Shown: positions 38,280 through 48,320 of the stretch, piece after piece
Position numbering within the stretch: the first letter of the stretch is position 1
How the letters are laid out: every line of letters starts with the position of its first letter
Assembly (NCBI GenBank): GCA_029856045.1
Contig: JAHQWG010000008.1
Coordinates: forward strand, 1 to 56,397
Source: Promethearchaeia archaeon
GTDB lineage: Archaea; Asgardarchaeota; Lokiarchaeia; Sigyniarchaeales; SOKP01
Direction of reading: 5' to 3'
DNA length: 56,397 nt
Program-made: the position numbers and the translations under genes
Notes under the pieces: generated by a model
The model's database searches: none
Told to the model about the DNA's origin: nothing
Seen by the model: only the letters and a program-made list of their open reading frames with translations

Positions 38280-41200
38280 TTAATAATGTTCGCCTATATC
38301 CTCTCCAAACTTTTTTAAATCATCTAATAACAAACTAATTCGCTTCCTATTTGATAATAATAGCCTTATTTTATCGATTTCCTTTATATCCGGCATTTCA
38401 ATACCTAATCTCATCTGTTTAAATAACGTATTTGCCTGATTTATATAGGTTCTTGCTTGATTTAATAATTTACCTTCTAATGGCGTTATTGAAAGGCGTC
38501 TCTTTAATTTTGAAAAATTATAAAACCATAACATTCCACTCAATAAAATAATTAAGATAATAGCAATTATATCAAAAATATGAGGATATCTAGGATTGGG
38601 ATATTCATATTCTTCATATGATGGCTCGGGATCTTGATATATAACAGTGAATTTGAATGTTAGAGTTTCCGCAGCTAATTCTGGATGATCCAAAAGTAAA
38701 ACAAAATAATAATCACCTGTTTTATCAAACCAAGTAGTATCAAAATAGACCATAAAGTTTCCAGGTTGTGTTTCAAACATCGGGAGAATCGGTATTTCGA
38801 ATCCCATTAATGAAGCATTTATCATTGTCCCATCTTCATATACAAACCCTGAAATAAAGAATAAATCATCATCTAAATACTCTTTTATCTCATCGTAATT
38901 CAATAAATTTGCGGTTAAATAGATTTTATCCCCAGTTTTAACTGTATTATTTACAACGGATAAATTAAAATCATAAAATTTGTTAAATGCCCATTTACCA
39001 ATATTGACCGCAAATGGGCTATTACTAAAGCTTTCAAGTCCAGAAATTCCAAACATATCCTTGTCTCCTATGGCTAAAACTCTTCCTTTTCCGTATGTTG
39101 CTACCCCAATATAATCGCATAATAAATCTACATTTTCGGAATTTGCATTTAATTTTCCAATATTAACTGGATCAAGCAATTTAATGGTACCTATCCCATC
39201 AAAAAGGTTGTATAAATTGGTGCGATTATTACTAGATATAAATTTATTACCAGAATTATATCCGGAAGTAGTTAGGTTAAATTTTGTTAAGAGATTATTG
39301 ATTGTAGTAATATTATTTTCTGTATTGTTTTCGATAAAAAACACTAAAACTCCACCATTTTCAACCCATTCTATAATATCTTCAGTTTCATTTATTGAAT
39401 AAGCTGATTCTGGATCATTTAAAATTAGTACATCGAAGAGTTGTATTATGTCATGATTAATATTATTTGTCGTTATGACTTCATTTTCTAGGTAATATCC
39501 ACCAAGTATACTTCCTAATAAATTCTCCGTTCCTTCCATATCTTCGGTGAGAGATGAGAAATTTAAAGCTGTTAAATCATATTCAATACCAGGCAAGAGT
39601 GTCACAATTGTTGCGCCTTTGGGTTCCAAATTACTCCATAACTCACGTAATCCATAAAAATTCCCATAAGGATGGTCATATCTTTCATCCCATTCAAAGT
39701 TTATATCAGTTCCATTCATATATAGTGTTATATTATTATGAACTACGTCAAAAAGTGCTCTTCCACGATAATCACTTATAGTAAAATTTACTAAAAGATC
39801 ATAGAATTTCACATTTTGTGAATAAAATGAAATGTTAAATGCAATTTCTCCCGGTCTCGATATTGGAGGTGCCATAACAAATAATGGGATGCAAAAATAG
39901 GGATCGACAAGATCATAATTTAAAGTTTTATTAAAAGTCATATCAACAGAAAATGCTGGGTCTGTTTGATTATCATCTTTACTTCCGAACCCTGTTAAAA
40001 GATCTGATAATCCTGCGCTAAAATTTAGAAGAATAAAATCACAAAATTGTTTCCCGAAATCATCTATTGTAACATATAAATCCGAAATTTCAGTTAATGA
40101 GTAAATCGTAATATTATAAATACCAAGATCACCGGGGAAGAAAATTTTGAAGGGGATTTGATCAATTTTTTCAGGTGATATGAACAAGGAATTCAAATTC
40201 CAACTTTGATATTGAATATAATCAATAATAAATATATTACGCACAAGATAATTGTTGAAAATATTTTCATCGGAATTAGCTGTAAAAAATCCAAGATCAG
40301 GTCCAATTAAACTAATAATTAGTTCTAAACCTAATATCCAGCCACAAGTATAGACTCCTACGCTTGTTGGCGTCCAATTAGCATTAAATTCTAAAATATC
40401 AAATGGTTTAAGATTTTCTACCAAAAAAATAACAGAAAACACTTCTAAAACACCATATTCATTTGTTTTATTAATAGCAAATATAACTTCAGTTGAATTT
40501 ATAAGTGTCGATCCGACATTCATTATTTTTACTGAGGATTCATATCTTTCATTAAGTTTCCCAATTCTAGAAAAATCAACTTCAAGAACTATTAAATCAG
40601 TTATATTATTGTAAATTGTGATGTTTGAATTAATTAATCTCATTTGATCAATCAATGCATCATAAGCAGAACTATTATCTGTTCCAATGCCTGTTCCAAG
40701 TATTGATGTAAAATTTATTTGATCATTGGGTTGAAAATTTTCCGCCATATCCCAAATCATTGCAAATCCAGGATCTTCTAAACCCTGCTGATATGTGGAA
40801 TCATTCGCTAAATTATAGGAACCATCTTCTTGAGTTAAATCAATTAATAAATTAGTGCTATTTCCAATTTCCCAAGAACTTAAATTATGAGAAGTTGAAT
40901 TAAATCCGATGGCTGTAAAATTAGAAGTATAATCATAATAAGTATTATTATTTTCATCATAAATATAAATTAATTCATCATTTTCATCATATTGACAAAT
41001 GTCATCAAGAGATGCGGTATTATACTCCATGTAATTTGTCATATTTCCAGCAGTTTCATTTAAAAATAAATCAGCTTTAAAAAATGAGACTAATTGTAGA
41101 TTGTTAATTTGGGTAATACCTAAATTGAAAAAATACAAATTAAATTTAAATGCATTTATTCGATTAGTATAATTTTTAAAAAGATATGTATCATTTTCAT

Positions 41201-43145
41201 ATTCTGCTGAATAATCCCAAGATTCAACGATGGCTACTATATAGAGTTCAATATCTTCTACTTTTAAAATACTTAAATATCTTTTATACTGTTCCCAACC
41301 AACAGGTGATAGCGTAATTTGATGCATTTCACGAATTACATTAAATTCCGAGAACCAATTAGTTCTTGTGTTGTTATATCTTAATCCAAATTGATTTAAG
41401 AGTAAATGTATTGTAGTAAAATTATAATCAGAACCATTATTTATCATTAATATTGGAAGCATCATTTGGGAACTCAAGAGAGCTGAAATATCATATGCAT
41501 GTAAATTTGGAGGGCGATTAATTGAGTCTGTTAATTTAATTGAGTCTTGAGAATATATAAATCCGGGATATATTAATGGCGCTGGTAAATTCAAAGCATT
41601 ATATTGTTTTGCTGTAAAATAGTCTAGTAAAAAGTTATATGATGCAGATACATTGATTAATCCAGTACCCACGGCATTTTTATCATCAGAAATTTGAATA
41701 GTTGTACTTATCAAAGCATATCTTATTAACTCAGGTGTTGCTAATGGAAATGCTTCTAATAATAAGGCTATAGCACCACTTGTAACTGATGATGCCGCAC
41801 CTGTGCCACTGGCCATTGTATAATTACCATCGATTATAGATCCATATTCCGGTTGTGGAAATGTCCCTTCAGGGATATAAAAATCTGAATATCCAAAATC
41901 TTCAAGTGTATAACCTAAAATTGAAAAATTATCTAGAGAACCGGAAAATACCTTTGCTCTTGGACCAATAAGGTTTATACCAGGTGCGAGAATATCAGGA
42001 CACATTCTAAAGTCTAGTGAAGGACCTCTACTACTGAAGTCTGCAACATTATGATTGGAATGATTATATACACCAACTGTGATTGATTTTAATGCCATTC
42101 CAGGTGTATCTAAACTCATATAACTTCCTCCCTCATCTCCAGCGGGTGTAACTACAATAACGCCTTTCTCTACAACATTATTAATAGCCATAGAGACAGG
42201 ATCCATATAAAATCCAGGAATACTAGCACAAAATAGTAGAATATCAGCACCATGAGATAAAGACCATTCTATTCCTGAAATGATAAAAGACCAATAAGTA
42301 ATACCAATCGAATCATAAATTTTTACATTTAAATAGGATGCACCTGGAGCAACTCCCTTATATGAAGAATTATATTTACCTATCCCACAAGCAATTCCTG
42401 CATGAAAAGTGCCTCGCCCATTAAAATCAGTATAATATAATGGTTCTTCTGGCACCATAGAAACGGCACCTATTACTTTAGTTTTAAGAGTAATATTATC
42501 TTCAGCTGGGAAACCCAAATCGCCATCGTATTGACCTGTAAGATCTACCCCAGTATCTAATACAGAAATTATAATATTGGAACCATTATAACCCAAATCC
42601 CACAAATTTGTAGCACCAATAATCTCTGTAAAATTGCAAAATGAATTTGAACCTTGAAAATCAGCCTTTTTTATATAATTTTCACTATTTCCTATTAATT
42701 CAGCCTCACCATTCTCCCAAATTGAAATTACTTTTGAATAATCTGCATTTTTTTTAAGATCAGAGATAAAGCATTCCATTAATATACCATCAATTATCGT
42801 GTATTCCTTTTTAATTTCATATTTGATTTTATTCCCCTCTAAATATATTTTAAAATCAGTTAAAACTGATTTCTTTCCACTTGAATAATCAAATAGAATT
42901 ATTACTTCAATTTTTTTATCTTCTTCTAAGTTATTTTCAATTACATGAAAATATAATTCTTTTAATTTATCACTCAATTTTTCTATTGGATTTTTGAGAA
43001 TAACTGAATTATTTTTTCCTACAATGACATTTAAATCTGCTGATTTAGAGAGTACTAATAAATTTGAAAATAAAAAAATTGAAAAAATAAATAATGTTAG
43101 CAGATTGGTTTTATTTCTTTTTTTAATTGACGTCCATCTCCCCAT
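38280..43145 (-). CDS. giant surface-anchored subtilisin-fold protein with degenerate active site
   Basis: 1621 residues: signal peptide/anchor (about 15-35), I9-like prodomain (about 78-150), S8 subtilisin-fold domain (about 170-480), long Ig-like/CARDB-type beta domains with many Asn-rich glycosylation sequons, a glutamine-amidotransferase-like segment (LILNDPESAYS...WVENGG), a C-terminal membrane helix near residue 1550 and a cytosolic tail. Catalytic Asp197 (SVLDTGVD) is kept, but the HGTHVAG position reads Arg244-GTF-His248, the oxyanion Asn of AAGNEG is Asp337, and GTSMAS reads SGTGAAS (Gly449 for Ser). It should be proteolytically inactive, perhaps a binding or scaffold protein. It lies 10 bp behind an ABC-2 ATPase gene. 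Confidence 0.85.
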   Translation of the reverse strand: MGRWTSIKKRNKTNLLTLFIFSIFLFSNLLVLSKSADLNVIVGKNNSVILKNPIEKLSDKLKELYFHVIENNLEEDKKIEVIILFDYSSGKKSVLTDFKIYLEGNKIKYEIKKEYTIIDGILMECFISDLKKNADYSKVISIWENGEAELIGNSENYIKKADFQGSNSFCNFTEIIGATNLWDLGYNGSNIIISVLDTGVDLTGQYDGDLGFPAEDNITLKTKVIGAVSMVPEEPLYYTDFNGRGTFHAGIACGIGKYNSSYKGVAPGASYLNVKIYDSIGITYWSFIISGIEWSLSHGADILLFCASIPGFYMDPVSMAINNVVEKGVIVVTPAGDEGGSYMSLDTPGMALKSITVGVYNHSNHNVADFSSRGPSLDFRMCPDILAPGINLIGPRAKVFSGSLDNFSILGYTLEDFGYSDFYIPEGTFPQPEYGSIIDGNYTMASGTGAASSVTSGAIALLLEAFPLATPELIRYALISTTIQISDDKNAVGTGLINVSASYNFLLDYFTAKQYNALNLPAPLIYPGFIYSQDSIKLTDSINRPPNLHAYDISALLSSQMMLPILMINNGSDYNFTTIHLLLNQFGLRYNNTRTNWFSEFNVIREMHQITLSPVGWEQYKRYLSILKVEDIELYIVAIVESWDYSAEYENDTYLFKNYTNRINAFKFNLYFFNLGITQINNLQLVSFFKADLFLNETAGNMTNYMEYNTASLDDICQYDENDELIYIYDENNNTYYDYTSNFTAIGFNSTSHNLSSWEIGNSTNLLIDLTQEDGSYNLANDSTYQQGLEDPGFAMIWDMAENFQPNDQINFTSILGTGIGTDNSSAYDALIDQMRLINSNITIYNNITDLIVLEVDFSRIGKLNERYESSVKIMNVGSTLINSTEVIFAINKTNEYGVLEVFSVIFLVENLKPFDILEFNANWTPTSVGVYTCGWILGLELIISLIGPDLGFFTANSDENIFNNYLVRNIFIIDYIQYQSWNLNSLFISPEKIDQIPFKIFFPGDLGIYNITIYSLTEISDLYVTIDDFGKQFCDFILLNFSAGLSDLLTGFGSKDDNQTDPAFSVDMTFNKTLNYDLVDPYFCIPLFVMAPPISRPGEIAFNISFYSQNVKFYDLLVNFTISDYRGRALFDVVHNNITLYMNGTDINFEWDERYDHPYGNFYGLRELWSNLEPKGATIVTLLPGIEYDLTALNFSSLTEDMEGTENLLGSILGGYYLENEVITTNNINHDIIQLFDVLILNDPESAYSINETEDIIEWVENGGVLVFFIENNTENNITTINNLLTKFNLTTSGYNSGNKFISSNNRTNLYNLFDGIGTIKLLDPVNIGKLNANSENVDLLCDYIGVATYGKGRVLAIGDKDMFGISGLESFSNSPFAVNIGKWAFNKFYDFNLSVVNNTVKTGDKIYLTANLLNYDEIKEYLDDDLFFISGFVYEDGTMINASLMGFEIPILPMFETQPGNFMVYFDTTWFDKTGDYYFVLLLDHPELAAETLTFKFTVIYQDPEPSYEEYEYPNPRYPHIFDIIAIILIILLSGMLWFYNFSKLKRRLSITPLEGKLLNQARTYINQANTLFKQMRLGIEMPDIKEIDKIRLLLSNRKRISLLLDDLKKFGEDIGEHY

Positions 43146-43155
43146 TTTTATTTAT

Positions 43156-44817
43156 TTATTTTTTTGCTTTATCTATTTTGGGTTTAACTGTTGAAACAAA
43201 AGTAAAGTAATCAATCATATCAATTGAGACCTTAATATCGACAGAATCTATAGCTATATGATTCTCTTCAAGTTTTGCCAAGATTACATCTATTAATTTT
43301 TCCCGTTTCATATTTGAGAGCAATCTAATTCGTTCACCACGTTGTATAACAAAATCAATCTCTTTAATATCTTTTAAAATATTGAGTATATCAAGTTGTA
43401 TAGTTTTAAATTCAATTTCTACGGCATAACCTTTTCCTGGCAGTTTATTTTTTAGCTCTTCAGGAGTTCCGAAATCGTAAAACCCTATATTTTTCAAAAA
43501 AATGGCTGCTTTATCACAATATTCAATTTCATCCAAATAATGAGAGATTACAACTAATGTAATATCATATTCTTTATTAATAAAATCCAAGTATTGCCAC
43601 AGTTCATATCGAGCTTGAGGATCAAGACCAGAAGTTGGTTCATCCAAGAAAATAACATGAGGATTATGTACCATAGAAATTGCTATACTGACTCTTCTTT
43701 TTTGACCACCAGAAAGTGAATCAACCGGTTGATTTGCAACAAGAGCAATTCCTAAATCCTCCAAGATCTTTTTGCCTCTTTGAATAATTATATCTTCAGG
43801 AATTCCGTATTGGCGACCGAAGCTTACTATATTTTCTAATGCATTAAAATTTCCATACATCCGGCTTAATTCCTGTGGAATATATCCAATAAAAGGGGAT
43901 ACCGTTTTAGTATCTCTTGCATTATATCCAAATAGATTAATTTTACCTTTATAATCATACTCTCCTAAAATTGCTTTTAATGTGGTGGACTTTCCAGCTC
44001 CAGATTCTCCAATAATTCCTAAAATTTCTCCACGATTTAATTCAAAATTTACATCATGAATTATAGTTTTACCTCCTAATTTAACCAATAAATCTTTAAC
44101 TTCTAACACTTTTTTAGAAAGAGAAAGTTCTTCACCAATTTGAAAAGTAATATTTTGGGGTTGAACTTTTCCAATATCCGACTTATTTGAAACTTGAATA
44201 ACCCAATCTTGTGAGACAAATTCCTTAAATTCTTCATTTAATGGATTTTCTCGGTCAAATGCATCAAGTACTTCTATGATAAATTCTCTATTTTCCACCT
44301 TTTTAATGGTTCCATAAACAACAACTTTTTCAGCTTTTTTTTCTGACAATAGAATTCCATCAATTAAACATGTAATTCGAAATTTTGGTAGGAAACTTTC
44401 TAACCACTCTATTGCGTTATGATATTCTTTACCTCTAAAAAAAATTAATTCTTGACGATCAACTTTAAAACTATTCCTTAAAACAAAAATACTTGGATAT
44501 AATAATAAACTTTCTTTAGTTTTTCTAAAGTTTCTTGGAATTTTTACTATATGTCTTCCAATGAGAATATTTTCAGACCCTAATTCACCTTCTTCTAACA
44601 ATAGATACAATTCATCAGTAAAAATTTGGGATGTAAATTTTCTCAATAATGTACCTTTTGCTTTTATGAATTCTGAGTTAAACCAAGTTCCTGTAACCTC
44701 AATGTCAATAATATAATTTTGCCGATCTCTAAGCCATAAAAAAATCTCATCAAATTGATTAGCTGAGAAGATTGCCTCCTCTATTAATTCCTCCACACCA
44801 ACTTTTCTTATCGTCAT
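43156..44817 (-). CDS. ABC transporter ATP-binding protein with a novel N-terminal domain
   Basis: 553 residues. The ABC domain starts near residue 237: Walker A GESGAGKST (270-278), Q-loop YIPQE, signature LSGGQKRRVSIA, Walker B VIFLDEPTSGLD, switch His in VISHYLD. The DrrA/CcmA-like C-terminal extension (FGTPEELKNKL ...) fits ABC-2 exporters. The first ~230 residues, beta-rich and soluble (TGTWFNSEFIKAKGTLLRK; VVVYGTIKKVENREFIIEV), are not part of usual ABC-2 ATPases and are unrecognised. It probably powers the permeases encoded just upstream (44861-46033, 46059-47192). The pseudo-subtilase gene follows after 10 bp. Confidence 0.9.
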   Translation of the reverse strand: MTIRKVGVEELIEEAIFSANQFDEIFLWLRDRQNYIIDIEVTGTWFNSEFIKAKGTLLRKFTSQIFTDELYLLLEEGELGSENILIGRHIVKIPRNFRKTKESLLLYPSIFVLRNSFKVDRQELIFFRGKEYHNAIEWLESFLPKFRITCLIDGILLSEKKAEKVVVYGTIKKVENREFIIEVLDAFDRENPLNEEFKEFVSQDWVIQVSNKSDIGKVQPQNITFQIGEELSLSKKVLEVKDLLVKLGGKTIIHDVNFELNRGEILGIIGESGAGKSTTLKAILGEYDYKGKINLFGYNARDTKTVSPFIGYIPQELSRMYGNFNALENIVSFGRQYGIPEDIIIQRGKKILEDLGIALVANQPVDSLSGGQKRRVSIAISMVHNPHVIFLDEPTSGLDPQARYELWQYLDFINKEYDITLVVISHYLDEIEYCDKAAIFLKNIGFYDFGTPEELKNKLPGKGYAVEIEFKTIQLDILNILKDIKEIDFVIQRGERIRLLSNMKREKLIDVILAKLEENHIAIDSVDIKVSIDMIDYFTFVSTVKPKIDKAKK

Positions 44818-44860: not shown

Positions 44861-46033
44861 CTATAATAACACTTTTTTACGTTTGTAAAATATATATGCT
44901 GCAAGAAAGAATATAATACATTCACTAAATTGAATTAAATAATAAATATATTCAGATAAAGGAGATTGTCCTCGTAGGGCAATAGATACAATTAATAAAC
45001 TTGTATTAGCTAAAGGTAACAAACTTAAAATTAACTCATTTTGTACAAACAAAACTGCAATTATTTGAAAGAGAAAAACAAAAATGAATAGCTGCAGCGC
45101 TTCTAAGGGTTCTCTAGCTATTGAAGACATAAATAAACCATATATAATTCCTAATAAAGCGCATAAGAATAAAATCCAGAAAAAATCAAAAACCGATCCT
45201 CTAATTTGTAATCCAAGAAAATAAGATAATATTAAAAGAATTAGAATTAAAGATGTCATTAATGTTTGTAAAGAAATTAATTTTGATAGGATAATTTCAA
45301 ACTTATTAGCTGGTGTTAATGCTAATCTATCTTTAGGAATATCAGAAACAATTAATTGAGCACCCGTTAAAGATGCAATTGCAAATATAACCATTGGAAA
45401 AAATAATGAAACTCCTGAAAAAAGTTGTCTACCTGTTTCAGGAATATTTGCACGAGTAATTTCATAATCAAAAACTCCAGTAAAATTATTCTCTTCCTTA
45501 AAGTCTTCAATTATTACATCAATTATGGCTTGAGATGCTTGAAATCCTGACAATTCTAAAACATCTATTACTACAACTAGTATTGTTGGAAAATGAATTG
45601 ATAAATTATACTCAAACATCTCAGGAATTATTATATAAGCACTTATTATACCTTGACCTAACAAAATTTCCAATTTGGTTTGATTATTAGACTCTATTAT
45701 CTCCACCTCTTCAGCTTCTTCGTATTGCATGCATTTATTAACAAAAATTTTTGATAAATCAATATTTGGAAATCCTTCACTATTATCATTATCAATTAAC
45801 CCAATGGTTGGAATCTCAAGTCCTCCACCCATCATTGAAGCTAAGCCCCCACCTCCATCATCCCCTCCTGTGCCATTACCTCCAAATACCCCACCAAGAA
45901 ATAAAACTAAAAAAACTGGCAGAGCATAAATTATAAACATAGCAAAAATATCTTTCAATAATACTTTCAATTCTTTTATATAGAGCCCTCGAATTCTGAA
46001 AATACTCTTTTTTATTTCTTCCAGTTTCCCCAT
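44861..46033 (-). CDS. ABC-2 type permease
   Basis: 390 residues with the ABC-2 layout: one N-terminal helix (about 27-50), a large external domain (about 55-210) that begins with a glycine-rich stretch (GGNGTGGDDGGGG) and carries a YhgE/NatB-like fold, then five helices in the C-terminal half. It pairs with the second permease (25 bp upstream) and the ATPase 43 bp downstream. GTGA stands five bases before ATG 46033. Exported substrate unknown; Asgard and other archaeal members are usually annotated as drug or Na+ exporters. Confidence 0.85.
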   Translation of the reverse strand: MGKLEEIKKSIFRIRGLYIKELKVLLKDIFAMFIIYALPVFLVLFLGGVFGGNGTGGDDGGGGLASMMGGGLEIPTIGLIDNDNSEGFPNIDLSKIFVNKCMQYEEAEEVEIIESNNQTKLEILLGQGIISAYIIIPEMFEYNLSIHFPTILVVVIDVLELSGFQASQAIIDVIIEDFKEENNFTGVFDYEITRANIPETGRQLFSGVSLFFPMVIFAIASLTGAQLIVSDIPKDRLALTPANKFEIILSKLISLQTLMTSLILILLILSYFLGLQIRGSVFDFFWILFLCALLGIIYGLFMSSIAREPLEALQLFIFVFLFQIIAVLFVQNELILSLLPLANTSLLIVSIALRGQSPLSEYIYYLIQFSECIIFFLAAYIFYKRKKVLL

Positions 46034-46058: not shown

Positions 46059-47192
46059 TCAAACAAACTCCTTTTTAATATATTGAAAATACACTATATT
46101 AATAACAAAAAAGAACAGCGTTATAATTGATAAATTTAACAGATTTGGCCAAATATCTAATAAAGTTTTACCTCTATATGCTAAATCCACAAACGCGGCA
46201 GTAGCTTGTTCTAATGGTAAAAAATTAACAATTGCTGGGATTCTCACAATTTGAGTTATTAACAACATCATTATAAAAAAGAATAGAAATAATTGTGAAG
46301 ATTGTAAGCGGCTAGAGCTAATAGAAGAAAAAAATACTCCAATAACTACACTATTCACAGCGAAAAGTAACAACATCAAAAACAATTCAATAAAAAGACA
46401 TCTATATTGAATTCCGAACACAAATTCCAAAAATAATAAAATCAATACTATTTGAAGTATAGCTAAAATTGAATAAGAGATAATCTTCCCAATAATTACT
46501 TCAAATCTAAATGTTGGAGTTGTTAATAATCTTTTAAGTGGTTTATCTCCTACAATACATTGCGTCGTAATTAAATTTATACATGCAAAAATCATTATTG
46601 AGACAAGAAATGGAGCTGCAATTTGTAATATATTTAATGATTCTACAGGTTTCATAACAGGGAAATAAAAAAGGTCAGACTCAAATTGTTGATTTATTAT
46701 TTGATAATGAACGGTCGCATCCATAATTGAAGCTTGAGCGGAAAAAGCACTAAAGAAATCAATAAAATCGATAAAAATTGGCAATTCTGTTGATTTATTG
46801 TTTTTTAAATTTTCAGAAAAATTTTCAATTAAAATAATATATGCTACAATTTCTTCGGTTGGTAATTTTTCCTTAGCTTGTTCCTCGAATTCTTCCGCAG
46901 TCATATTAAAATCTTCTTTTACTTTCACTGAAACTTCTGCAGTCGTATTATATTTAAATGTATCGATAAATTCTTGGGATTCATCAGAATCATCATAGTC
47001 GATAATATAAAGTTCTACCAGACCACCCATTAGAGAAAATTCTCCTATACCAATTAAAGTTATGACACAAATAGGAATTATAAATAAAATAACCATTGAG
47101 ACTTTATCTTTAACCAATGTATCTAATTCTTTCCTAATTAGAGAAAATATCCTTCGCCTACGCTCTTTTAAAGATCTAATATCGATACTCAT
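46059..47192 (-). CDS. ABC-2 type permease (second subunit)
   Basis: 377 residues of the same family as its neighbour: helix 1 at about 32-52, an external domain up to about 190 with acidic strands (YIIDYDDSDESQEF), then six helices (EVIIGKIISYSILAILQIVLILLFLEFVFG is the core ABC-2 segment). The two permeases probably form a heterodimer with one or both ATPases. First gene of the minus-strand operon ending in the pseudo-subtilase, and divergent (117 bp apart) from the second ATPase. Confidence 0.85.
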   Translation of the reverse strand: MSIDIRSLKERRRRIFSLIRKELDTLVKDKVSMVILFIIPICVITLIGIGEFSLMGGLVELYIIDYDDSDESQEFIDTFKYNTTAEVSVKVKEDFNMTAEEFEEQAKEKLPTEEIVAYIILIENFSENLKNNKSTELPIFIDFIDFFSAFSAQASIMDATVHYQIINQQFESDLFYFPVMKPVESLNILQIAAPFLVSIMIFACINLITTQCIVGDKPLKRLLTTPTFRFEVIIGKIISYSILAILQIVLILLFLEFVFGIQYRCLFIELFLMLLLFAVNSVVIGVFFSSISSSRLQSSQLFLFFFIMMLLITQIVRIPAIVNFLPLEQATAAFVDLAYRGKTLLDIWPNLLNLSIITLFFFVINIVYFQYIKKEFV

Positions 47193-47309: not shown

Positions 47310-48320
47310 ATGTCCAAGATTAAAGCTTCTGGCAAAATTGATAATAAAAAAGATGAATATTCAGACTTTAGCCTAATTTTAGATAAAGTATATGCAAGTT
47401 ATGAGAGTGGAAAAAATGTTCTTGAAGATATATCATTTAGGGCTAAAAAAGGAGATATTCTTGGAATTATCGGAGGAAGTGGTGCCGGAAAAAGTACTTT
47501 GCTTCGCGCAATGACAGGTCAATTAGATAGAAAAATCTTACATAAAGGAAATGTAATAACTGCTGGTATAAATGTTTTAAAAAAAAGAGAAGAATTAATA
47601 AATAAGATTGGATATGTTCCACAACTAGAATATCTTTCATTATATTTTGAATTTAATGCTATAGATAATTGCATCTTTTTTGGAAAGAATTATCAATTAG
47701 ATAAAAATACAATTAGAGAGAATGCAAAAGAAATTTTAGAAGTTTTGGGGTTTGATGAAGAATTAATGCATAAACCAGTTAAAAGGTTATCTGGTGGAGA
47801 GAAAAAGAGAGTTAGTATAGCTGTTGGATTAATTAATACTCCAGAAATCTTATTTTTGGACGAACCAACCACAGGTTTAGATCCTCATCTTCGACTTGCA
47901 GTTTTAAATTTCTTATTAAAAATAAATAGAAAATATAACACAACTATTATAATTGTATCTCATAATCTTGAAATCTCTGATTACTGTGATTTAATTGCGG
48001 TTTTAATTAAAGGAAAATTAAGAAGTTTTGGTAGTGCTGATGGTATGATCCAATCACTTCCATCAGAGGGAAAAGTTATTTTATGCAAATTCAAATATCT
48101 TGATTTAAATCAAATTGAAGCAATTAAAGGGTTAAAAAACGTAGAATTTATATTGCATGCTGGAAGAAACCAAATTAAATTATTTTTAAAAGACTTTTCA
48201 CAATTCAGAAAAACCTATAACCAATTAATTGAGTTAAATCTTCCATTGTCATCTTTTTCAATAAAGCGAGGTAGCTTTATTGACTACTTTAGAATAATTG
48301 GAGAGAAGGTAATACAATAA
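47310..48320 (+). CDS. ABC transporter ATP-binding protein (ABC-2 exporter type)
   Basis: 336 residues: Walker A GGSGAGKST (about 55-63), YVPQLEYLSLYFEF Q-loop, signature LSGGEKKRVSIA, Walker B ILFLDEPTTGLD, VSHNLE switch His, and a ~90-residue DrrA-like C-terminal domain. It lacks the 230-residue N-terminal domain of the other ATPase but is otherwise its paralogue. Divergently placed from the permease genes, so the transporter may use a heterodimer of ATPases. Its stop codon ends one base before the tRNA-Pro gene. Confidence 0.9.
   Translation: MSKIKASGKIDNKKDEYSDFSLILDKVYASYESGKNVLEDISFRAKKGDILGIIGGSGAGKSTLLRAMTGQLDRKILHKGNVITAGINVLKKREELINKIGYVPQLEYLSLYFEFNAIDNCIFFGKNYQLDKNTIRENAKEILEVLGFDEELMHKPVKRLSGGEKKRVSIAVGLINTPEILFLDEPTTGLDPHLRLAVLNFLLKINRKYNTTIIIVSHNLEISDYCDLIAVLIKGKLRSFGSADGMIQSLPSEGKVILCKFKYLDLNQIEAIKGLKNVEFILHAGRNQIKLFLKDFSQFRKTYNQLIELNLPLSSFSIKRGSFIDYFRIIGEKVIQ

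Follow-up and report, generated by a model that had tools for sequence, protein, structure and literature searches.

An apparently inactive subtilase joined to a GIFT domain and co-inherited with an ABC-2 transporter in Asgard archaea

What role can a subtilase-like protein have when three of the four residues expected in its active site are replaced and its gene lies beside those of an ABC-2 transporter? The question is raised by a gene of a Promethearchaeia archaeon (order Sigyniarchaeales). The window, the whole stretch of DNA that was analysed, comprises 56,397 nucleotides (contig JAHQWG010000008.1, assembly GCA_029856045.1), and all coordinates refer to it. A sequence-only reading had named a prodomain, Ig-like domains, a membrane anchor, an amidotransferase-like segment and the gene order of the locus. 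All were confirmed, the amidotransferase-like segment as a segment that profiles and fold matches identify more precisely as a GIFT domain. The gene and its parts are as follows.

38280..43145, (-) strand: pseudo-subtilase-GIFT ectodomain gene, 1621 aa, ATG start
43035..43145, (-) strand: signal peptide, residues 1-37 (hydrophobic 13-36)
42624..43034, (-) strand: prodomain-like segment, residues 38-174, the fastest-evolving part of the gene (model, divergence)
41616..42623, (-) strand: inactivated S8 (subtilase) domain, residues 175-510 (Pfam, alignment, model)
39606..41615, (-) strand: beta-rich/Ig-like (CARDB-like) domains, residues 511-1180
38886..39605, (-) strand: GIFT (GATase-like) domain, residues ~1181-1420 (profiles, model)
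38586..38885, (-) strand: membrane-proximal Ig-like domain, residues ~1421-1520 (model)
38505..38585, (-) strand: single transmembrane helix, residues ~1521-1547
38283..38504, (-) strand: cytosolic tail of ~74 aa with the C-terminal end FGEDIGEHY, its length conserved across Asgard

The protein has 48 N-x-S/T sequons, none of them in residues 1550-1621, which is consistent with a type I membrane topology. The AlphaFold2 model of residues 546-1621 (pLDDT 79) comprises beta-sandwich domains, a GIFT/GATase-like alpha/beta domain, an Ig-like domain, the transmembrane helix and a helical tail, in an arrangement that is unsure at a pTM of 0.53. Outside the S8 domain, in the beta-rich segment, H580, E606 and H608 are invariant or near-invariant across the family and could form a metal site.

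The partner genes encode two permeases and two ATPases.

43156..44817, (-) strand: ATPase subunit ABC_B, 553 aa
44110..44817, (-) strand: ABC_B N-terminal domain, residues 1-236
44861..46033, (-) strand: ABC-2 permease PERM2, ABC2_membrane_3
46059..47192, (-) strand: ABC-2 permease PERM1, ABC2_membrane_3
47310..48320, (+) strand: second ATPase ATP2, divergent to the other four genes

The gene order is PERM1-PERM2-ABC_B-pseudo-subtilase, with ATP2 as the divergent fifth gene of the set; in f2, a family of the same order, the five stand in line as ATP2-PERM1-PERM2-ABC_B-pseudo-subtilase. Matches to ABC2_membrane_3 (58 and 81 bits) and ABC_tran (104 and 94 bits) all exceed the Pfam cut-offs, identifying an ABC-2 transporter. 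The nearest PDB relatives of the ABC_B ATPase are ABCA-type transporters and the permeases are weakly ABCG-like. The N-terminal domain of ABC_B is conserved across Asgard classes; it has no match in Pfam and no convincing one in the PDB (best E 0.001 over 27 residues of a designed TPR).

The active-site positions were assigned by alignment of the S8 domain with subtilisin BPN' and with relatives.

42555..42557, (-) strand: Asp197, equivalent to BPN' D32, retained (alignment)
42414..42416, (-) strand: Arg244 at the catalytic His position, BPN' H64 (alignment)
42135..42137, (-) strand: Asp337 at the oxyanion Asn position, BPN' N155, this Asp being invariant in the clade (alignment)
41799..41801, (-) strand: Gly449 at the nucleophile Ser position, BPN' S221 (alignment)

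The four positions lie within conserved flanks (D-T-G, G-R-G-T, A-G-D-E-G and G-T-G-A-A) and the alignment register is held by the invariant or near-invariant G199, D240, G243, G245, T246, G336, G339 and T448. It is settled by deeper orthologues that have His exactly at the position of Arg244. His248 was considered as catalytic His and rejected, since it aligns with BPN' Val68 (GHGTHVAG against GRGTFHAG) and the His of the relatives sits at 244. The same four residues had been read directly from the motifs, an assignment that the BPN' alignment and the relatives uphold.

The elements of the fold had also been thought well preserved, and on this the Pfam match and the structural model agree. 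Peptidase_S8 (PF00082) matches residues 188-492 with E=5e-32, and the AlphaFold2 model of residues 38-545 (pLDDT 81, pTM 0.84) has as top PDB match ProN-Tk-SP (3afg; TM 0.68, E 5e-32), which indicates that the fold of prodomain and S8 domain is preserved. Tk-SP of Thermococcus kodakarensis, the closest solved prodomain-S8 structure, is a subtilisin-like protease proper without GIFT domain, transmembrane helix or ABC partner, unlike the window protein. By fold and homology the latter belongs to the S8 family; it has neither the Asp/His/Ser triad and oxyanion Asn of an active S8 protease nor the catalytic triad of the MBTPS1 type.

A profile search of 227 Asgard genomes, together with the loci fetched from it, yielded 75 S8 domains whose oxyanion residue is Asp. 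None of the 75 has the canonical D/H/N/S set. Their residue sets are DHDA (33), DHDT (15), DRDG (10), DHDS (4), SEDA (3) and others found once each. The change of the oxyanion Asn to Asp is common to all (40/40 representatives), and nearly all have lost the nucleophile Ser; five of the 75 keep Ser in the S221 column, four as DHDS and one as DSDS. His was replaced several times, by R in the window's genus and f2, by E in f4, by S in L036 and some members of f8, and by P in L198, while most members of f4 also have Ser in place of the catalytic Asp. The relatives therefore share the replacements in part: the oxyanion change and the loss of Ser are clade-wide, whereas His to Arg is a later change found only in the window's order, and many relatives retain His. 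A joint loss of the catalytic residues in the window's lineage was rejected on this distribution.

In a maximum-likelihood tree computed with the active-site columns removed, the representative pseudo-subtilases (40/40) fall on one side of a branch with 100/100 support. The ABC-linked pseudo-subtilases form, as judged from this tree, a single well-supported clade that is ancient and present in several Asgard classes. The fetched loci also contain 18 intact DHNS subtilases, and four further subtilases in the window's own genome are all DHNS. Asgard subtilases unlinked to ABC genes are intact except two with Thr or Ser at the oxyanion position; L253 and L258, in tandem in G057:C2, keep Asp, His and Ser with Ser or Thr as oxyanion residue and lie on a separate divergent branch. 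Non-Asgard relatives in the genome collection with all four positions readable are all intact D/H/N/S. In the stretches read from 194 + 197 genomes outside Asgard (phyla of the Thermoplasmata and Methanothrix records) there was no subtilase-GIFT-ABC set, the matches being to the GIFT domain or to single domains only.

The S8 domain is under strong purifying selection. Its dN/dS within the genus is ~0.05-0.2, and few parts of the gene evolve more slowly. The window and L005 form the pair that has diverged furthest; here the S8 domain, with a pN of 0.12, is the slowest part, the GIFT region reaching 0.25 and the prodomain 0.38. The proposal that selection kept the fold and not the chemistry agrees with these values and with the residue sets of the family. 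A pseudo-subtilase family is indicated by the oxyanion Asp at 75 loci, the single clade and a dN/dS far below 1. Between L032 and L033, synonymous divergence is 0.04 in the S8 domain and 0.20-0.68 elsewhere in the gene, a mosaic that suggests recombination.

Retention of the peptide-binding cleft for ligand recognition was examined with a list of the cleft positions of subtilisin. In the pseudo-subtilase clade 35.5% of random position sets were equally conserved, against 2.4% in the intact subtilases. Intact enzymes hardly vary at S125 and G127 of the strand that binds substrate, yet both residues have been exchanged in the pseudo-subtilase clade (S125 in nearly all members). A cleft kept for recognition is thus unsupported, and the absence of preferential conservation together with these replacements argues for a structural or interaction role, not for peptide binding in the old cleft.

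The association with the transporter is seen in gene linkage and in co-inheritance. An ABC_B-type ATPase lies within 1.5 kb at 69 of the 75 pseudo-subtilase loci and at 0/18 intact subtilases of the same fetched loci; four members of f10 and one of f6 are found away from ABC genes. Both the pseudo-subtilase and the ABC_B N-terminal domain are present in 74 of the 227 Asgard genomes, the pseudo-subtilase alone in 5, the domain alone in 2 and neither in 146, in counts whose genomes are not phylogenetically independent. The totals are 79/227 for the pseudo-subtilase, counted manually among the hits of the profile search, and 76/227 for the profile of the ABC_B domain. Family by family, the two distributions correspond almost exactly. 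Within f1 neither occurs outside the window's genus, and f10 has kept both though on different contigs (C1 and C3 of G057); such shared confinement, and shared retention once the linkage was lost, strongly suggest a single complex. TPR proteins, one with an MIT-like match, lie near the f10 pseudo-subtilase that is unlinked from ABC genes (L045:2949-7462, G057).

The cytosolic tail, conserved at about 77 aa, covaries with the ATPase. It measures 74-84 aa in every complete member that adjoins a complete ABC_B with the N-terminal domain described above, while the only tail-less members, L043 and L052 (8 and 12 aa), stand beside ABC_Bs with a different N-terminus. From this covariation we infer that tail and domain touch; L043 and L052 are near relatives and the covariation is thus probably one evolutionary event. 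In these class-level relatives (L043:7854-9761 and L052:10596-12488) the N-terminus fused to the ABC ATPase matches PCI and E3_UFM1_ligase (UFL1), in L043 also the DDRGK model, and it is a PCI/UFL1-like winged-helix array. The suggestion that the protein works with the ABC-2 system is supported by linkage, by co-occurrence even when unlinked and by the covariation of tail and ATPase domain. The protein has a signal peptide of its own, and there is accordingly no sign that the ABC transporter exports it.

The GIFT domain is recognised at the level of the family. Among 43 members, Pfam models IFT52_GIFT, ABC_transp_aux (GldG) and MBTPS1_4th match 39/43 (best E 1e-11), 37/43 and 6/43, respectively, the window protein itself being unmatched by MBTPS1_4th. 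Alone, the window protein scores 17-18 bits with the GIFT model, under the Pfam cut-off of 27, and it is the family profile that convinces; in the PDB, IFT52 is hit by this profile at E 8e-13, and site-1 protease at E 1.5e-8. The fold matches that are informative for the C-terminal half are to OST48/Wbp1 (TM 0.36-0.39 on their length), site-1 protease (9csd and 8uw8) and IFT52 (0.64 for the isolated domain). Sugar binding has been proposed for the GIFT domain, which was named for GldG and IFT52 and occurs also in Wbp1 (PMC7226087).

ABC systems with GIFT accessory proteins are known from GldAFG (PMC5682007). Like GldA/GldF/GldG of gliding Bacteroidota, the Asgard set combines an ABC-2 permease, an ATPase and a membrane-anchored accessory protein with the GIFT domain outside the membrane. 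It differs in having two permeases and two ATPases, one of the latter with a novel N-terminal domain, and the ATPases reach 113 and 137 bits with the GldA equivalog model TIGR03522, whose cut-off is 402.6. To our knowledge GldG lacks both a subtilase and a beta-domain chain of this kind. OST48/Wbp1 and IFT52 share GIFT and Ig-like domains with the window protein, OST48 also a C-terminal transmembrane helix; unlike it, they have no subtilase and no ABC transporter, and their TM-scores are low except for that of the isolated IFT52 domain.

The eukaryotic site-1 protease (S1P/SKI-1/MBTPS1) has a prodomain, a subtilase domain, a GATase-like/GIFT domain, a transmembrane helix and a short cytosolic tail in the same order. 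In contrast to active S1P, the Asgard pseudo-subtilases have apparently lost activity; they are also longer and are associated with an ABC transporter. Better functional counterparts of S1P are, by sequence, the intact Asgard subtilase-GIFT paralogues, which are possible active archaeal equivalents of that protease. Such intact DHNS subtilases of ~1300 aa with a GIFT domain were seen at L055:6775-10770, L060, L062, L054, L202 and G000:C27:141180-142490, and several of them have filamin-like domains and a C-terminal zinc ribbon.

The reading preferred here, to which we give a probability of roughly 0.55, is that the protein is a dedicated non-proteolytic ectodomain subunit of an Asgard-specific, GldAFG-like ABC-2 exporter with two permeases and two ATPases. 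Inheritance and sequence give good support for the complex and for the lack of catalysis by the pseudo-subtilase, while the direction, export as opposed to import or force transmission, would follow from the ABC-2 family alone. The cytosolic tail would dock on the N-terminal domain of ABC_B, so that the ATP cycle might be coupled mechanically to the ectodomain, and the ectodomain would receive, hold or organise whatever the permeases move. The GIFT domain is the likeliest ligand-binding module; GldG and OST48, as analogues, would point to a glycan or a lipid-linked glycan as its ligand. The dead subtilase would act as a structural or protein-interaction platform, not as a peptide-cleft binder. 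Autoprocessing is not expected of the S8 domain, so the prodomain would remain bound and form a lasting element of the structure.

The receptor or scaffold envisaged by the sequence-only reading gives two other explanations. In one, the protein is a sensor: a ligand outside the cell would bind to the dead subtilase, and the signal would reach the ABC ATPase by way of the tail. This has its model in the nearest known case of a dead S8 domain, the pseudo-subtilases CspC and CspA of Clostridioides difficile, which act in germinant sensing and show the same pattern, with Asp kept, His replaced by Thr, Ser by Gly and the prodomain uncleaved (PMC6636752). They are soluble spore proteins with a jelly-roll insert, without GIFT domain, transmembrane helix or ABC partner, and the NCBIfam CspBA model gives the window protein 41 bits against a cut-off of 1250, over a best stretch of 48 residues. 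The covariation of the tail with the ATPase would also suit a sensor, but an obligate transporter partnership fits a transport subunit equally or better, the S8 cleft lacks preferential conservation and neither a signalling domain nor a response gene is linked to it; a sensor is therefore unlikely. A structural or mechanical scaffold, part of an Asgard surface coat or of a force-transmitting machine that does not touch the substrate, appears a little less probable still. It could account for the long beta/Ig chain, with its fold matches to S-layer, integrin and adhesin-like proteins, and for the GldA-like and GldG-like matches, GldA/GldF/GldG being needed for gliding. The long beta-sandwich fold matches are however at TM ~0.1 and non-specific, and we know of no gliding of this type in Asgard archaea.

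That the protein is a weakly or conditionally active protease, tolerating the oxyanion Asp and using another nucleophile in some members, is highly improbable. In its favour are the five members that keep Ser. In four of them, the DHDS members, the oxyanion residue is the single departure from an active enzyme, and this change alone need not abolish their activity; the proprotein convertase PC2 is active with Asp at that position. The Ser-keeping proteins nevertheless combine the oxyanion Asp with the absence of a G-T-S-M-A context, a motif found in no member of the clade, and on their sequences activity is unlikely. Against activity in the family at large stand the near absence of Ser from its column and the replacement of S125, and in the window's clade Arg takes the place of His and Gly that of Ser. 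A decaying pseudogene or an assembly artefact was rejected and has a negligible probability. A genome of the same genus, G002, does have broken remnants only: at L042 (G002:C30:3831-6024) ATP2 is split by a stop, the pseudo-subtilase is reduced to C-terminal remnants with internal stops and ABC_B was not found, by loss or by assembly error. Dozens of genomes, though, carry full-length open frames, with dN/dS far below 1 and within a single ancient clade.

Dead subtilases and ABC systems with GIFT accessory proteins are each known, while their joining in one protein was not found described. A literature search covering few subscription journals returned no account of the subtilase-GIFT fusion, of its Asgard-wide conservation or of its S1P-like architecture, nothing joining Asgard archaea with site-1 protease or IFT52, and no conserved pseudo-subtilase that is archaeal or associated with a transporter.

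Conserved pseudo-subtilases are rare, and the co-inheritance of this one with a specific ABC-2 system defines a concrete protein complex for testing, in which residues 1-236 of ABC_B, a new domain with no relatives found, are the predicted contact partner. It is conceivable, as a tentative view, that the complex is an Asgard-wide ATP-driven surface machine in which an S1P-like protein (subtilase-GIFT-transmembrane) was turned into a non-catalytic transporter subunit. If true, this protein and the intact subtilase-GIFT paralogues would be archaeal relatives of an architecture found later in the eukaryotic secretory pathway, in site-1 protease and OST48. With subtilase, GIFT domain and transmembrane helix shared with S1P, and a GIFT/Ig/transmembrane half that is OST48-like, the family would bear on the origin of parts of the eukaryotic secretory machinery.
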